DNA of 40,428 bases from a virus. Under the pieces are notes generated by a model, which saw nothing but the letters and a program-made list of their open reading frames with translations, did not search any database and was not told where the DNA came from. This document shows, in pieces, positions 11,955-32,676 of this stretch; positions within the stretch are counted from its first letter, which is position 1, and each line of letters opens with the position of its first letter. Location of the stretch: IMG/VR virus record IMGVR_UViG_3300042565_001438, positions 1-40,428 of that record. One strand, given 5' to 3'. The position numbers and the translations under genes are program-made.

Positions 11955-12845
11955 TTAGGTAATCGTTGCGCCAACGTCGTCGATGTTGGCCGGGGACAAA
12001 TTCACCCACGCGGTGCCGGTGTAGCCCTCGAAGGTGCCAGCGCTGGTGTTGAAGCGGATCATGCCCGTGGCTGGGGTGTTCGGGCGCTGTGCGGTTGTGC
12101 CAGTTGGTAGTTGGACGAACTGGTTTGTTGTAAGAAAGCTGGAGTTCAGGGAAACAACGCCGTCGCTGACTGCGATGCCGTTGCCGGCGGTCACAGTAGC
12201 GTTGCTGCCGGCAGGTCCTGTAGCACCAGTAGGGCCGGCGGCGCCCGTGGCACCTGTAGCGCCCGTTAAACCTTGGGGACCTGTCTCGCCTTGTGGGCCC
12301 GTGGGGCCGGCAGGGCCTGTTTCGCCTTGTGGACCTGCTGGGCCGGTCAGACCAATTGGGCCTTGTTCGCCCTGGGGGCCTTGGGGACCTGTTGCTCCAG
12401 TTGGGCCGGTTGGTCCGGCGTCGCCTTGTGGACCTGCAGGTCCCGCAGGGCCGGTTGCGCCAGTTGAACCTGTTGGGCCGGTTGCGCCGGTTGGGCCAGC
12501 AGGTCCGGTGGGGCCGGCAGGGCCAGTAGCGCCTGTTGGTCCTGCAGGGCCTGCGTCTCCCTTGGCGGCCTCCGCTTGGTTGCCGCTGATTGTTAGTTGC
12601 GTGGTGCGGAGGCGGCCGTTCGTGTCTTTTGTGCCAAGTGCAACGGGCTCGCTAGGCCAGCCGTTGCTGGATTTAGGGCCGTAAAGCTGTTTCGTGCGGC
12701 GGTCGATGTACCAGTCGCCGGAACTGCCCGTGTCGTCTGGGGGACCGTCGCCGGATAGCAGCGTCGTGAGATTTTTGAGTTTTTTGCTGAGTTTGACGAG
12801 CGCGGTGACTTGGGCCAGCGTCAGGTAGTCCTGTTTGGTGGCCAT
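11955..12845 (-). CDS. Collagen-like structural protein (Gly-X-Y repeats)
   Basis: The product is 296 residues. An N-terminal domain of about 95 residues has a helix ([19 protein letters not shown]) and a [15 protein letters not shown] segment. It is followed by roughly 35 Gly-X-Y triplets, mostly GPT, GPA, GAT and GPQ, with single charged variants such as GDA and GEQ. The C-terminal 80 residues end in a beta-rich cap ([18 protein letters not shown]). This suggests a trimeric triple-helical fibre. Its place between portal and scaffold points to a head or neck fibre rather than a tail fibre. It starts four bases after the portal stop. The GC-rich repeat DNA makes a long antisense ORF, which I regard as a shadow. 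Confidence 0.85.
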
Positions 12846-14870: not shown

Positions 14871-15214
14871 TAGCCGTGGTACGCAACTGAGATGTATGGG
14901 GTTACGTCGGGAGTACCAGAGTTGACTTCCGAGATGCGTAGTCTGACTTTGGCTGCGGGTTTGCCGTCGTAGAAGTAAACGTAGGCTCCAGCGGAGTTGA
15001 TGGTTTTAGCAGTTTCGATGGTGAACCAGTTGCCGTTGAAGCTGCACTCGATGGCGAGTTTGAAGTTGGCGGAGCCGACCACGGTGGCAGCCATGCTGTA
15101 GCTGCCCGAGTGAGCAGGGATCTCGAACCAGTCGTCGAGGGCGGTGAGTTTGGCGCCGGTGTATTCGACGATGTTTGTGTGGCGGTCGGTGGCGGTGATA
15201 GCTTTGGCGGCCAT
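14870..15214 (-). CDS. Small beta-rich head-module protein
   Basis: This 114-residue protein is almost entirely beta-strand-like (TNIVEYTGAKLTALDDWFEI, KLAIECSFNGNWFTIETAK, VYFYDGKPAAKVRLRISEV), with little charge clustering. Such proteins in head modules often decorate or stabilise capsids, but this is inference from composition and place only. It starts two bases after the stop of the small basic protein upstream. Its final base is shared with the next start. Confidence 0.72.
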   Translation of the reverse strand: MAAKAITATDRHTNIVEYTGAKLTALDDWFEIPAHSGSYSMAATVVGSANFKLAIECSFNGNWFTIETAKTINSAGAYVYFYDGKPAAKVRLRISEVNSGTPDVTPYISVAYHG

Positions 15215-15216
15215 GA

Positions 15217-15396
15217 TTACTTGCTCCGTTTTTTGGCGGGTTTAGCCGGTTTGGCGGTTTTGGCGGCAGCCTTGAAGGCGGCGGCAGTTGGGGCGCCCTT
15301 GCTGCCCGGTTTACGCATCTTTTCGCCCGAGCCAGCCTCGATGCGCTTGCGTTTGGCGGCGATGTTGGCGTACAGACCCGGTTTTTTCGGTGCCAT
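15217..15396 (-). CDS. Small basic protein (KRKRIEAGSGEKMRKPG type)
   Basis: The product has 59 residues. The first half reads KPGLYANIAAKRKRIEAGSG followed by EKMRKPGSKGAPT. The second half is Lys/Ala-rich with AKPAKPAKK repeats. I recognise the first half as a short protein conserved next to terminase in many aquatic phages. Its high charge suggests DNA or RNA binding, perhaps in packaging, but the function is unknown. It lies four bases after the stop of the 26-residue gene and just before the beta-rich protein. Confidence 0.8.
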   Translation of the reverse strand: MAPKKPGLYANIAAKRKRIEAGSGEKMRKPGSKGAPTAAAFKAAAKTAKPAKPAKKRSK

Positions 15397-20078: not shown

Positions 20079-20201
20079 ATGAGATACACCCCGAGACACC
20101 GTGGCCGGTCTGGCCGCCTACGCCCCAAGCACCAGGGCAACTACCGGAAATCCCGGTGTTTAGGTGTTGGTGCGAGGTATGAATGGAAATCCAGGGCATG
20201 A
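20079..20201 (+). CDS. Very basic 40-residue ORF
   Basis: ATG at 20079, stop at 20201. It starts MRYTPRHRGRSGRLRPKHQG and stays Arg/Lys-rich to the end, with no acidic run. It continues the plus-strand operon after the hairpin. It may be a small nucleic-acid-binding protein or a chance frame. Support is limited to composition and position. Confidence 0.35.
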   Translation: MRYTPRHRGRSGRLRPKHQGNYRKSRCLGVGARYEWKSRA

Positions 20202-20315
20202 ATGGGTTTTGAGGCCTTGAATGGCGTTTAGTGCTTCGTGCAGTACGCCTGGGTGCCGGTGCTCCAGCTCAAGGGACATGTACCAGCCCTTTGAATGGCG
20301 GGGCGGCTTGAATGG
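20180..20315 (+). repeat. Cluster of five TGAATGG heptamers
   Basis: TGAATGG at 20180, 20199, 20218, 20292 and 20309, all on the plus strand. Three are 19 bases apart (start to start). Three more copies occur up to 21003 within the nuclease gene. The spacing and density are iteron-like. Confidence 0.5.
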
Positions 20316-20416: not shown

Positions 20417-21240
20417 GAGGCTTCGAGCTTCTCGAAATACTGTACTACTCTAGCCATGAATGACTCCTCTGCCTCTCTTAAGTCGCGAAGCGACATTGAA
20501 TGGACATTGGGGGCACCACAGCGGCGGGCTAGGACGACGACTGCTCCAGTGGGCTGGAGGCCTGTGAGGTGTTTCAGGCCGAGGCTGTACGCCCCGCACT
20601 GGTCGATGTATGAATGGCCTTCCGGGAGGCGCTCCAGGCCGTCCTCGTCGGGGGTGGTTTTGCGGCCCACGCTGGTCTTCCAGTCGGCTAGGACCAGCTC
20701 GTTGTTCTTCATGCCGATCAGGGCGTCGCAGGTTCCAGCGAAGCCGGCCGGGTGATGTATGGAAAACTCCGAGGCGAAAATTTCGGTCGTGTTAGCGACG
20801 ATCCAGTCAGATAAGCCGCGAGCATAACCAGAGGCGCTCCAGCCAACACGAGGCACATTCGGCCGTACTTTGTGGAGAGCCCACTGTGTGATTTTAGAAG
20901 GAATACGAGCTAGCCCCTGTTCGTCCCAGTGAATAGCGTTGCGCTTGTTTGCTGTATTGCGTGCCAGTTGCTGAGAACACTTCAGCAGGTATTCGGCTTG
21001 TGAATGGGCCATGTTGCCTCGGGTGGCGGCAACGTTGCGTTGGGTGGTGGCCTCTTCGGGTCCCAGGCGGGCGATCCAACGCTCCAGTCCTGTGGTGTCG
21101 CTTGTCTCTTTGAGGATATGGGTTACTGAGTGGTACACAGTGCCGTTTGCGTCTCGGTAGACGCGGAATGGGCCAGAGTTGTCTTGTACCAGCCTCCATT
21201 TACGTAGTGATGCCAGGGTGTCTTGTGTGTTGGAGGCCAT
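20413..21240 (-). CDS. PD-(D/E)XK nuclease (RecB/Cas4-like exonuclease)
   Basis: This 275-residue protein has a RecB-family nuclease core near residues 160-225: GFAGTCDALIGM (first Asp), LVLADWKTS (Asp-x-Lys), and YIDQCGAYSLGL (QxxxY). The N-terminus carries YHSVTHILKETSD, as in related phage exonucleases. It likely resects DNA ends for recombination, working with the ssDNA-binding protein upstream. I prefer the ATG at 21240: the promoter at 21263-21291 would start transcription near 21256, which excludes the outermost ATG at 21258. An ATG at 21246 is also possible. Confidence 0.85.
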   Translation of the reverse strand: MASNTQDTLASLRKWRLVQDNSGPFRVYRDANGTVYHSVTHILKETSDTTGLERWIARLGPEEATTQRNVAATRGNMAHSQAEYLLKCSQQLARNTANKRNAIHWDEQGLARIPSKITQWALHKVRPNVPRVGWSASGYARGLSDWIVANTTEIFASEFSIHHPAGFAGTCDALIGMKNNELVLADWKTSVGRKTTPDEDGLERLPEGHSYIDQCGAYSLGLKHLTGLQPTGAVVVLARRCGAPNVHSMSLRDLREAEESFMARVVQYFEKLEAS

Positions 21241-21509: not shown

Positions 21510-22091
21510 TCAGGCGGCCTTGAAAGGGTTGCCGCCGGTGAGGAGGCGGCTGATGTCGAAGCCTTCGGACTTGGATTCCAGCCAGGCGGCGTCGACGTGT
21601 TCTTGGGCGCCTTTCTTGCGGGGGACGGGGCGGACGGTGTACTCGGTGGTGAGGCCGCTGCCCTTCTTGCTGATGTTGAAGTCCCAGGAGAGCAGGTCTT
21701 CGTAGTCCTCCATTTGGGAGATCGAGTCCAGCTCTTTGAGGATGGACTTTTGGGTGATCTGGAGGACTTGGACTTTGCCGGACTCGTAGTTGTAGACGGG
21801 GACGGCGATGGCGAACTTGACGTCGACGGTGCCAGGGCCGCCGCGGCCTTCGCGGGGCTCGAAGTCACCCATCTCGGAGGTGATGTCTTCGGGGGTGGGC
21901 TCGTAGTCGAAGCGGAAGGGCTTGGAGGCGCCGTCGCAGGAGCCCCAGCACTCGTAGAACTCCAGGGGTTGGTCGGAGAGCATGGCGAAGCGGACGGAGC
22001 CGCCGTCGGGGAGTTTGCTCAGAGTCAGATAGCCGCCGCCTGCTCCAGTGCTGGAGACTGCTGCTGAGGCTTGCTTGGAAAGGAAGGCCAT
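21510..22091 (-). CDS. Phage single-stranded DNA-binding protein
   Basis: This 193-residue protein starts at the ATG at 22091; 15 more codons are open upstream. Aromatic-rich and basic patches alternate (RFAMLSDQPLEFYECWG, KPFRFDYEP), followed by VQVLQITQKSILKELDSISQ and DLLSWDFNISKKGSGLTTEY. This is the pattern of the phage OB-fold ssDNA-binding proteins. It protects ssDNA in replication and recombination and is co-located with a RecB-like nuclease and a primase. The C-terminus (NPFKAA) lacks the usual acidic tip. Confidence 0.8.
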   Translation of the reverse strand: MAFLSKQASAAVSSTGAGGGYLTLSKLPDGGSVRFAMLSDQPLEFYECWGSCDGASKPFRFDYEPTPEDITSEMGDFEPREGRGGPGTVDVKFAIAVPVYNYESGKVQVLQITQKSILKELDSISQMEDYEDLLSWDFNISKKGSGLTTEYTVRPVPRKKGAQEHVDAAWLESKSEGFDISRLLTGGNPFKAA

Positions 22092-22125
22092 AGTTGGTTG
22101 TGTGTTTTGGCGTCGCCTGAGTGGC

Positions 22126-22140
22126 AACCCTTGCACAGTA
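22126..22140 (-). promoter_or_regulatory. Early promoter element TACTGTGCAAGGGTT
   Basis: On the minus strand, TACTGTGCAAGGGTT is identical to the element at 19319-19333 upstream of the plus-strand early operon. It is 35 bases upstream of the ssDNA-binding protein start. TACTGT fits a TANNNT -10; the rest may be an initiation region or operator. Confidence 0.5.
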
Positions 22141-22169
22141 GCACGGGGTTGCCGGTGGGGCTACCCTAC

Positions 22170-22202
22170 AAAAATGCCCCAGCGTGGAATGGCGCCGGGG
22201 CA
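22170..22202 (-). terminator. Hairpin with T-run between divergent early genes
   Basis: TGCCCC-a-GCG-loop-CGC-c-GGGGCA (22175-22202). On the minus strand it is followed by ATTTTTG. It lies upstream of the ssDNA-binding protein promoter, so it could insulate it from antisense transcription. It could also be part of the primase mRNA leader. Confidence 0.45.
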
Positions 22203-22234
22203 GAGAAAACCAACTTCTGTAGGAGTCTAACATC

Positions 22235-24646
22235 GTGTCTCACGCGACGCAAGAGTTGCTGGCGTTTGTGCGCCAGTTACCGGTGGGGATGGCGTATGCG
22301 CCCATCTACGCCAGGAAGTACGCAATCCAGTCGGGGAAAATTTCAAAGGGCAAGACGCCGCTGGAGAAGTCGCACCATGTGGTGATGACGCCGGCGGATG
22401 TGGCGTTGCAGATCGAGCGCAAGCCGGATGTGTTCCAGGCGGTGGGGGTGTTTACGGGGCCGCGGAGTCAGGGGCTTGTGATCCTTGACGTGGACAGGAA
22501 TCTGGCCAAGTTGCGGAAGAAGTGGGGCGAATCGCTGGAGGGTGCTCCAGTGGTGACGAGCACCAAGGCCAACGCGGCGAAGTTCCTGTATCGCGTCCCA
22601 GAGGCTCTGTGGGGCGAGGTAAGGGGTTTTGGGTTGTCGGATACCGGGGCGGGATACGAGGTCCTCTGGGGCCGTCAGGGGGTCCTCTACGGGGCTTATC
22701 CGGGCTCCAGTGATGGGAAGGCGCCGGAGGGGGCTTACGGGTTCGAGGGGGATCTGGATGCGATTCCAGAGGCTCCTGAGTGGCTGCTGGCAGAGATGCG
22801 GGAGCACGCCGGTAAAGAAATTCAGGATGCGGGGTTTATCAAAAACCGTACGGCGCTGAATTTTTCTGGTCGGGATCCAGCTGAAGTGGCTGAGATTGTT
22901 CAGTCTGCCCTTCGAGTTATCCCTGGGCAGGGTGCGGGTAGCCGGGACCACTGGGTGAAGGTGGGGATGGCGATCCACTCGGAGTTGCCGGACGAGCTTG
23001 GTTTAACGCTGTGGAGTGCGTGGTCGGCTGACGATCCTGAATACTCGGAGGAGTGGGTTGATTCCAACCCGTGTGAGGAGGTGTGGAAGTCGTTCAAGAA
23101 AGGGCCGGTGAGCCTGGGGACGCTGTTCTGGATGGCGGACCAGCAGATGCCGGGGCGGTTGTGGCTGTCGGAGGATTTGCGGAAGGTTGTTGAAAAAGTA
23201 GAAGCTGACAGCGTCACGCGGTTTAGGCAGGTAATCCTGCCGTATGCCGAAGTAATCAAGCGGGCGAAGGAACTCCAGGACTTGGCTAACCCGGCGGAGA
23301 TGGCCCACGCCATGCACGTGCTGGCGCTTGAGGGTGGCTATCGGGATGCGGGGGCGCTTGAGCGGTTGCTGATCAGCCAGATCCAGTATGAGCAGCAGGA
23401 TGATGAGATTGGATTGGACAGGTTCTTGGACAAGGATCTGAAGTTCGAGTACCTGATCCCGGATCTGTTGCCGTGTCCGGGGACGGTGATGGTCCACGGG
23501 GCTGGGGGTGACGGTAAGTCGATGTCGGCTTGGACCATTGCCAAGCATGTGGCGAGGGGGATTCCGTTCTCGGTGCGGGGGGATCTTGTGCCAGTGGAGG
23601 CGGGGCCGGTGTTGATCCTGAATGGGGACCAGAGCGAGGTGCAGGTCCAACAGCAGATGCGGGATCTGGAGTTTCGGCGGACGGATCCAGTGACCGTGGT
23701 GATGGGGTGGGACCTGAACTGGTACTACCGCTTCGTCAAGCTGATCGAGAAGCACCAGCCGAAGCTGGTGATCATCGATTCGATCACGGGGTGCTCCAGG
23801 GGTTCGGCGTTCGATGAGAACAAGAAGGAGTTTGCGGGGCCGATCTACTGGTTAAGCAACAACAACGGGCGGTTGTTCCCGGCCTGCACCATCCTGCTGA
23901 TCCATCACGCCAACAAGACGGGTGGATTCCGGGGCAGCACGGCTATTAGGGACGCTGTGGACGAGGTGTGGGGCCTCAGGAGGCCCGATAAGCGCCAGGT
24001 GGAGCAGGTGGGCTACAACGCCCGTCTGATCACCGTGGAGAAGTCCAGGGCGGGCAGGGACGGCTCCAAGCTGCTGATGAAGCTGGAGCATGACCTGACG
24101 TTCTCGCTGGCGGACTACGTCGAGCTGGACGTGGAGAGTGCCAGTCCGGCCTCGATTGTGGATCGGGTGCTCCAGCGCTTGAGGGCGGCTCATCCGCGGG
24201 CGTTGAGTCGGCAGGACTTGGCGGCTGATCCGCTTTGCGGAGGCAGCGTGTCGGCGATCCAGAAGGCGACCCAGCGCTTGCTGTCGAGGGGGCTGCTGGA
24301 GATGGCTGGAACCAGCCCCAATCCTTCGGGGGGTTCTCCCCTTGTTTTGTTCCAAGCAGTTCTCTCGCGTGGAGAGTGTCAGAAAGTGTGTCCAACTGAG
24401 GCAAAACCCTTGGTAGGACTGGAAAACACAGTTGGACAACCCCCTGACGTGTCCAACTCGTGTCCAACTGGTGCCGAGCAGCTGGACAAGCAGCTGGACA
24501 CTCCTACCCCCTGTCCAACTGTTAAATCCAGTCATACCAATGGATCTGCCCCAGTTGGACACGTTTTGGATGTATCCCCAAGGGCAGAACGCTCGGACGA
24601 GGAGCTGGAGGCCCTGAAAGGGGCGGCCATGGACACCTGGAGTTGA
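22235..24646 (+). CDS. Replicative primase-helicase (PrimPol-like plus RepA-like AAA ATPase)
   Basis: This 803-residue protein starts at a GTG with AGGAG nine bases upstream. Residues 1-200 are a PrimPol-like domain: VGVFTGPRSQGLVILDVDRN with its acidic pair, then VVTSTKANAAKFLYRVP. A linker of the type ending in DPEYSEEW follows. From about residue 400 there is a RepA/DnaB-like ATPase with Walker A GAGGDGKS (422-429), Walker B LVIIDSI (511-517), and FRGSTAIRDAVDEVW. The last 150 residues are a winged-helix-like part (RALSRQDLAADPLCGG) and a disordered tail whose DNA holds the iteron-like repeats. It should unwind DNA and prime synthesis for the family A polymerase. Confidence 0.88.
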   Translation: MSHATQELLAFVRQLPVGMAYAPIYARKYAIQSGKISKGKTPLEKSHHVVMTPADVALQIERKPDVFQAVGVFTGPRSQGLVILDVDRNLAKLRKKWGESLEGAPVVTSTKANAAKFLYRVPEALWGEVRGFGLSDTGAGYEVLWGRQGVLYGAYPGSSDGKAPEGAYGFEGDLDAIPEAPEWLLAEMREHAGKEIQDAGFIKNRTALNFSGRDPAEVAEIVQSALRVIPGQGAGSRDHWVKVGMAIHSELPDELGLTLWSAWSADDPEYSEEWVDSNPCEEVWKSFKKGPVSLGTLFWMADQQMPGRLWLSEDLRKVVEKVEADSVTRFRQVILPYAEVIKRAKELQDLANPAEMAHAMHVLALEGGYRDAGALERLLISQIQYEQQDDEIGLDRFLDKDLKFEYLIPDLLPCPGTVMVHGAGGDGKSMSAWTIAKHVARGIPFSVRGDLVPVEAGPVLILNGDQSEVQVQQQMRDLEFRRTDPVTVVMGWDLNWYYRFVKLIEKHQPKLVIIDSITGCSRGSAFDENKKEFAGPIYWLSNNNGRLFPACTILLIHHANKTGGFRGSTAIRDAVDEVWGLRRPDKRQVEQVGYNARLITVEKSRAGRDGSKLLMKLEHDLTFSLADYVELDVESASPASIVDRVLQRLRAAHPRALSRQDLAADPLCGGSVSAIQKATQRLLSRGLLEMAGTSPNPSGGSPLVLFQAVLSRGECQKVCPTEAKPLVGLENTVGQPPDVSNSCPTGAEQLDKQLDTPTPCPTVKSSHTNGSAPVGHVLDVSPRAERSDEELEALKGAAMDTWS
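24391..24560. repeat. Iteron-like array of GTCCAACTG in the primase gene end
   Basis: Copies of GTCCAACT(G) or its complement lie at 24391, 24429 (reverse), 24451, 24462, 24513 and 24552 (reverse). CAGCTGGAC variants lie at 24479 and 24491. They fall in all three coding frames and both orientations, so protein repetition alone does not explain them. This suggests a binding array, perhaps an origin. Confidence 0.7.
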
Positions 24647-31554: not shown

Positions 31555-32676
31555 TCAGGCGGGGCGGATTTGCAGGAGCCAGCCGGAATCGGGGCCGTCG
31601 ACGAGCCAGCGAGGGAGCCAGTTCTTGCGGGAGTATGCGACACCGGCGCCGCCTTTATTGCTTATGTAGCCACCTTTTACGAGGTCGGCCTCTCCGTTGG
31701 GGTCGTTCTGGATGAAGTGTGTCGGCGTGAAACCAGTGGCCACGCTCCAGTGACCAGAGCCGCTCGGAGCAGATACAGGACCGCGGTGGAGCCAGCCGAC
31801 TGGGGTGGGGTGGCCGTTTTTGAGTTCTTCCTCCAGGGTGGCAGCAGTCGCATCTTGGATGAAGGTGGCTTTTAGGCCGAGGGAGCGGAGAGCGCCGAGC
31901 TGGGCGTTGACGTCGGTGGTGTCGCCGTACTTGCGGCGGATCACGTTATAGGAATCGTCATTGCCGATGCGGCCCCAGTAGCGGGCAACCATGGCGCAGC
32001 TGGAACTGAAACACTCGCGGTAGCCGGTGCCGCTTTTGTTGTCGAGCTGGTATTCGTAAGGAACTTTTAAGGTGTGCGCTCCAGGGGTTTCGATTGCTGG
32101 GGAGTTTTGGCTCATCAGTTTGATGAGTTTTTCGGGGTAGTTAGGGTCGGTGGCGTAGCCCTGTTTGTGGAGCATACGGGCGGCGTCTTCGCGGGTTTCT
32201 GCGTTGTTGACGCCTTTGAAGGTTTTGAAGTCTTTGTACCAGTGGTCGACTAGATAACAGACGCAGGTCTGGATGTCGGGGAAGTCGATGAAGGAGTCAG
32301 TGATCGTGACCCATTGGTTATTGAGAAATTCTTGAGTTGTGGTGGCGGTTCCATCGCCTTTGAGGCCGAAGAAGTTATTGCGGCCTGAGACGGCAGTGCC
32401 GTGGCTGGATTCCAAGGCCCACTGGGCTGCCACCAGTTCGGGGAATTTGGCGCCGGCGATGCGGGCGGCTTTGGTGATGCCGCTCCAGTCGTTGGCGACG
32501 GCGAGGATTTTGCCGCTCTGGCTCCAGGTCTTGAACCAGGCTTGGTTGCGGCCGAGGATGTGCGGGTTGCACTTGTTGATGGCTTCCTCCAGTTCTTGGA
32601 GGGCGGCCATCTGGTGCGGGAGGGCGCGGTAAAACCGGCAGATGTCCAGCAGACGGATGGTGTTGGAGTTAGTCAC
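31555..32676 (-). CDS. Bifunctional endolysin: glucosaminidase-like plus C39-like peptidase
   Basis: This 373-residue protein has two lytic domains. Residues of about 60-195 match a GH73 / FlgJ-type glucosaminidase (AAQWALESSHGTAVSGRNNF with its Glu, then ITDSFIDFPDIQTCVCYLVD). Residues 200-373 match a C39-like cysteine peptidase: YRECFSSSCAMVARYWGRIG with the active-site Cys, GHWSVATGF with His, and QNDPNGEADLV with Asp. It should cut both glycan and peptide bonds of peptidoglycan. There is no signal peptide, so release likely depends on a holin. The GTG start overlaps the stop of the frameshift extension upstream (GTGACTAA). Confidence 0.85.
   Translation of the reverse strand: MTNSNTIRLLDICRFYRALPHQMAALQELEEAINKCNPHILGRNQAWFKTWSQSGKILAVANDWSGITKAARIAGAKFPELVAAQWALESSHGTAVSGRNNFFGLKGDGTATTTQEFLNNQWVTITDSFIDFPDIQTCVCYLVDHWYKDFKTFKGVNNAETREDAARMLHKQGYATDPNYPEKLIKLMSQNSPAIETPGAHTLKVPYEYQLDNKSGTGYRECFSSSCAMVARYWGRIGNDDSYNVIRRKYGDTTDVNAQLGALRSLGLKATFIQDATAATLEEELKNGHPTPVGWLHRGPVSAPSGSGHWSVATGFTPTHFIQNDPNGEADLVKGGYISNKGGAGVAYSRKNWLPRWLVDGPDSGWLLQIRPA

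Follow-up and report, generated by a model that had tools for sequence, protein, structure and literature searches.

A mirror-symmetric array of sites inside a phage primase-helicase gene, a putative landing site of the encoded protein and candidate replication origin

The 40,428-nucleotide virus sequence analyzed here (the whole stretch, hereafter the window) carries, in the last 260 nt of a long open reading frame (22235-24646), a dense set of short DNA repeats, raising the question of why a coding sequence should contain such an array and which protein, if any, reads it. The original prediction, made from the letters of the window, described an iteron-like array in a primase-helicase gene that might be the replication origin or an autoregulatory site of that gene. 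From comparison of the sites, the encoded protein, and a large family of relatives, we propose that the primase-helicase lands on the array within its own gene and that the array is most likely the phage replication origin (or a helicase-primase assembly site), a reading to which we assign a probability of about 0.6. Apart from the primase-helicase, Pfam and PHROGs searches identified in the window genes for a family A DNA polymerase, terminase, portal, tail proteins, and integrase, and the terminase is closest to that of cyanophage S-2L (43% identity). A terminal repeat of the window sequence was looked for and none was found, and circularity is not supported.

The host gene and the mirrored array

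The 803-aa product of the gene comprises a PrimPol domain (aa 37-183), PriCT_2 (223-301), and a RecA-like helicase domain of the AAA_25 family (405-563; Pfam E-value 1.1e-17) that does not qualify as an SF3 helicase, followed by a C-terminal part made up of a winged helix (about 641-708), a disordered tail whose codons include the array, and a C-terminal helix (788-802). Because the full-length AlphaFold2 model is of low confidence outside the winged helix, the C-terminal model alone was used. In this model, the winged helix is predicted with pLDDT of about 84-89 and consists of helices 641-651, 659-664, and 672-684 and strands 688-694 and 703-708. The best structural matches are winged helices, with Z up to 10.7; this assignment relies on the fold together with VIA Z of about 9-10, the Foldseek E-values being weak (about 1e-3). 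The array codons fall in the predicted disordered tail, directly after the confidently modeled winged helix. The relevant features of the gene are as follows.

22235-24646, + strand: primase-helicase gene, 803 aa (Pfam and PHROGs scans, AlphaFold2 models)
24155-24358, + strand: predicted winged-helix DNA-binding domain, aa 641-708 (AlphaFold2 C-terminal model)
24242-24277, + strand: recognition-helix window, aa 670-681 (GSVSAIQKATQR), co-varies with the array motif
24317-24340, + strand: wing loop, aa 695-702, with strands 688-694 and 703-708 on either side, co-varies with the array motif

A scan of the window located six exact copies of GTCCAACT, in both orientations, at 24390-24560, together with two CAGCTGGAC variants (24479-24487 and 24491-24499), in agreement with the original prediction. 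The sole further copy of GTCCAACT lies at 12109, so that the window holds 7 copies, compared to 1.08 expected, and at least 7 were obtained in 0 of 100 shuffles. On the GGACA-bearing strand, the full unit of the array reads CAGYTGGACA; seven exact copies of it and one GAGTTGGACA, with the first C replaced by G, are contained within 173 bp, and no exact CAGYTGGACA was found outside the array in the 40-kb window.

24389-24561, no strand assigned: dyad-symmetric array of eight CAGYTGGACA sites, centre at about 24475
24389-24398, - strand: site 1, CAGTTGGACA, outer left, mirrors 24552
24429-24438, + strand: site 2, CAGTTGGACA, mirrors 24512
24450-24459, - strand: site 3, GAGTTGGACA, mirrors 24491
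24461-24470, - strand: inner left extra site, CAGTTGGACA, mirrors 24479, missing from some relatives
24479-24488, + strand: inner right extra site, CAGCTGGACA, missing from some relatives
24491-24500, + strand: site 4, CAGCTGGACA
24512-24521, - strand: site 5, CAGTTGGACA
24552-24561, + strand: site 6, CAGTTGGACA, outer right

The orientations of the eight sites, - + - - to the left and + + - + to the right, form four mirrored pairs with matching half-distances and a common centre, 24475, within half a base, an arrangement obtained in 8 of 20,000 random placements. The description of the array as iteron-like thus holds for the repetition of sites but not for direct repeats, given that both orientations occur around a dyad. 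This mirror symmetry, along with the concerted variation in relatives and the long imperfect inverted repeat described below, goes beyond what had been predicted. A second, short mirrored pair is present inside the dyad, ACTGG at 24408-24424 and CCAGT at 24529-24545, and is nearly invariant in relatives.

The copies occupy different codon frames, encoding CPT, VGQ, VSNS, QLDK, QLDT, CPT, and VGH. Comparison with relatives yielded an amino-acid difference of 0.52 in aa 717-785 vs 0.14 in aa 1-640, with the opposite relation for synonymous codon difference at positions encoding the same amino acid, namely, 0.17 vs 0.43 in the same two regions. The codons of the site core are nearly fixed (TGT in 29 of 30, GGA in 30 of 30, and GAC in 30 of 30).

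24383-24585, no strand assigned: region of synonymous-site conservation, aa 717-783, covering the array and the stretch after the last site

Because synonymous codons are frozen while amino acids vary, the DNA of the array, and not the protein, is under selection, which bears out the earlier suggestion that it is the DNA that is repeated; the sites are kept where the protein tail differs, and the array exemplifies selection on DNA sites acting through a freely varying protein tail. Directly 3' of the last site, at 24566-24585, codons 777-783 (GTTTTGGAxGTATCCCCAAGG) show almost no synonymous differences among relatives, which may reflect an additional DNA element.

Two other repeats were noticed in the window. 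A tandem repeat with a period of 9/18/27/36 (GCCGGTTGC-like) lies at 12429-12551, inside the minus-strand ORF 11955-12845, and six copies of CGCCAAA in one orientation occupy about 210 bp (15149-15358) adjoining the terminase gene, clustered but with a whole-window count not above chance.

Joint variation of sites and winged helix among relatives

The same protein, at 74-100% identity, is encoded at 80 loci in viral contigs; further scans yielded mostly the same loci, for a total of 64 unique complete sequences, all of metagenomic origin. In these 64 unique relatives, too, the array is inside the coding sequence. Exact GTCCAACT is missing from many of them, and every complete relative listed carries its own version of the array; absence of the array from close relatives, which would have refuted the original prediction, was not encountered in any complete relative examined. 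The relatives retain six core sites with TGTCC or GGACA in the order + - + - + -, in many cases at spacings of 45, 16, 46, 16, and 45, of which the central one varies, and this strict six-site geometry is found at 73 of the 77 complete loci. The 4-5 bases next to the core vary between phages (CAGTT, CAGTG, CAGCT, CAATG, AGGTG, AGGGG, AAAGA, ACCG, CACT, and others). Within one phage, the flanks of the sites agree, with z of 7.6-10 for every pair of the six sites in label permutations.

No relatives were detected in bacterial genomes by a pattern scan, and no comparable repeat array was found at the gene end in the nearest cultured phages with similar helicase/primase parts, S-CBS4, the Manatee Spring phages, and ZP6. 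Viral contigs were also scanned for three copies of GTCCAACT in close proximity, which produced at least 120 stretches. In 80 of these (L086-L165), the clusters mostly fall within long ORFs, resemble within-protein repeats, and were rejected as arrays of the same kind; at least four copies of TGTCCAAC within 300 bp were present in 3 of the 80, none of which resembled the array in the window.

The differences between the motifs of different phages bear no relation to distance over the first 690 residues of the protein (r = 0.05). A partial Mantel scan that removed the effect of overall protein distance was run in 11-residue windows along aa 1-699. Its maximum falls on the recognition helix (aa 670-681; partial r = 0.50, permutation p = 0.0005), with a second rise toward the wing, and elsewhere the correlation is flat (mean 0.00, s.d. 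0.10; best value outside aa 645-690, 0.23). The strongest single columns are 700, 696, 676, 695, 697, and 674. Phages with identical key helix residues possess the same motif class, R676, L679, and G674 occurring, for example, with CAGTG, and K676 and T673 with GGGG. Because motif differences track the recognition helix and the wing, and not the overall divergence of the protein, the array is very probably bound by the winged helix of its own gene; the concerted flanks and the co-variation with helix and wing strongly support the binding site proposed in the original prediction. Phages with cores only 6-7% apart can differ in both motif and helix, yet two phages with a 20% core difference (L017 and L080) share CAGTG, and we read this as exchange of the reader and its sites as one cassette. 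The location of the sites in the disordered tail, right after the winged helix, would allow the two to move together.

A candidate origin and its alternatives

Under the preferred reading, several primase-helicase subunits would recognize the 10-bp sites with their winged-helix domains, the flank of 4-5 bp, specific to the phage type, being read by the recognition helix and the wing next to the constant GGACA core. The subunits would assemble as two mirror-image halves around 24475, and the assembled primase-helicase would then melt the DNA and prime synthesis. Inherited or swapped together, reader and sites would endow each phage type with a private replicon specificity. Because a multi-site, type-specific primase-helicase array in the same gene resembles the expected origin, the array probably functions as the origin of replication, which is the best reading of the data. 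The GC skew of the + strand, proposed in the original prediction as a check, does not turn at the array and is positive to either side of it. This skew is positive over nearly the whole window (1-40428), whatever the gene direction, without a clear turning point. An AT-rich unwinding element is not evident at the array at 1-kb resolution (62% GC).

The chances appear about even that this phage family carries a self-contained cassette of reader and origin, with at least 10 specificities through joint exchange, amounting to a replicon-type (incompatibility) system. If so, the family itself would spell out a protein-DNA recognition code for a PrimPol-RecA-type-helicase initiator, with an origin architecture previously unknown. 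The origin, the winged-helix recognition code, and the replicon compatibility of related phages would become testable with small synthetic DNAs because a large natural family appears to present sites and reader in many matched versions.

A rather unlikely alternative is that the winged helix binds the array for copy-number control or autoregulation, by roadblock or titration as in P4 crr or plasmid inc iterons, and that the origin is elsewhere, for example, at TGAATGG. This heptamer indeed forms a separate, strictly oriented array upstream of the primase gene in relatives, with 155 copies in one orientation vs 4 in the other across 88 kb of 23 relatives, located about 1-4.5 kb upstream of the gene; the gene itself and the DNA beyond it hold few. 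In the window, five copies cluster around 20180-20315, where most frames are interrupted by stops; further copies are at 20497, 20611, and 21001. These repeats could be an origin, repressor- or stoperator-like sites, priming sites, or something else. However, TGAATGG stays the same whatever the array type or its reader, which leaves it without a link to the initiator. No array site is present near the primase promoter or the gene start at 22235, and no repeats at all were found in 22000-22260, making classical promoter repression unlikely; autoregulation, the other function originally suggested for the array, is thus not supported at the promoter.

Secondary structure offers another explanation, namely, that the repeats are the stems of a long single-stranded hairpin or cruciform, formed on unwinding or supercoiling and recognized by structure, as proposed for pRN1. 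The array stretch of the window is a long imperfect inverted repeat that folds into one long hairpin (z = -10.5), as is the case in most of 32 relatives (mean z -6.4); the nested pairing of sites 1-6, 2-5, and 3-4 shows the highest within-phage identity of the 15 pairings (p = 0.0001), and non-site positions across the dyad are 45% complementary. A pure structure, however, needs neither one common site sequence nor a match to the recognition helix, and we consider this explanation distinctly improbable as a replacement for the winged-helix landing site, with which a hairpin or cruciform can be compatible.

Linkage without interaction, whereby the adjacent winged helix and array are exchanged together by recombination, is very improbable, even though synonymous distance over aa 641-700 also correlates with motif distance (0.23-0.38), unlike in the rest of the gene, so that the shared ancestry of a short exchanged stretch accounts for some of the co-variation. 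After control for local synonymous distance, the signal falls to about zero at aa 643-663 but still reaches 0.46 at the recognition helix, and it drops at 677-680 and rises again at the wing, also after this control; furthermore, linkage leaves the concerted change at all sites unexplained. Finally, the strong folding energy could come from a structure in the 3'-terminal part of the primase mRNA, serving its regulation or stability. This is hardly credible, because mismatches in the nested pairs do not favor G-U (4) over A-C (16), the opposite of what an mRNA helix should leave, while the array region matches no Rfam family and it is a DNA-binding helix that co-varies with the sites; a better fit is a nucleoprotein complex with dyad symmetry that forms on the DNA, perhaps with the help of a cruciform.

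Relation to known replication systems

Iteron plasmids (RepE, RK2, and P1) share with the window multiple short sites and a replication protein encoded alongside them, but their sites are repeated directly, usually next to an AT-rich region, whereas those in the window form a dyad inside a gene where the 1-kb GC content is 62%. The alpha protein of phage P4, likewise a primase-helicase, binds origin repeats through its C-terminal winged helix (described in PMC4234260). In this architecture, P4 alpha, which acts with ori1 and crr, and the window protein are alike, and they differ in the primase family, which is Toprim in P4 and PrimPol in the window. In P4, moreover, the sites are located outside the gene for alpha.

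In pRN1, replication needs a stem-loop beside the gene for a PrimPol-helicase-winged-helix protein, and this stem-loop is the origin; Bordetella phages BPP-1/BIP-1 were proposed to be organized similarly, with a large inverted repeat adjoining the gene (PMC4234260). In these systems and in the window alike, a single protein combines PrimPol and a hexameric-type helicase with a winged helix at its C terminus, and in the phages also with PriCT_2; the helicase is SF3 in pRN1/BPP-1 and AAA_25 (RecA-like) in the window, where the large inverted repeat is inside the coding sequence and not 3' of the gene. The element in the window also carries clear repeated sites, unlike pRN1 as described, and no repeat array was found at the end of the BPP-1 gene. 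For PrimPol-helicase replicons including pRN1, the origin-bound motifs were reported as 'not yet identified' (PMC4234260); the family described here appears to show such origin sites directly, together with their reader.

A close parallel in organization comes from lambdoid phages. The lambda ori lies inside gene O (PMC4488673), gene 18 of phage L contains TGTCCAACGGA repeats that are a putative origin inside the initiator gene (PMC8022706), and from phage to phage the repeats change along with the specificity of the initiator (PMC4488673, PMC8022706). Lambda O and the gene 18 of P22 and phage L thus resemble the window gene in harboring origin repeats inside the initiator gene, and the phage L repeats follow shortly after the DNA-binding part, as the window array follows the winged helix. 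The repeats of Salmonella phage L (L339, gene 18, 31650-31737) even share the TGTCCAAC core with the window array, although a profile comparison of the window tail region with phage L O revealed no similarity. As in the lambda O type, the window family has its sites within the coding sequence of the presumed initiator and a site sequence that co-varies with the DNA-binding domain by phage type. In lambda and L, however, the repeats are direct and the initiator lacks a helicase or primase domain, whereas the window sites are mirror-symmetric and the putative initiator is itself a primase-helicase. What is new here is most likely a cassette of the lambda O kind, with the origin inside the initiator gene, on a PrimPol and RecA-type-helicase protein and with a dyad replacing the direct repeats.
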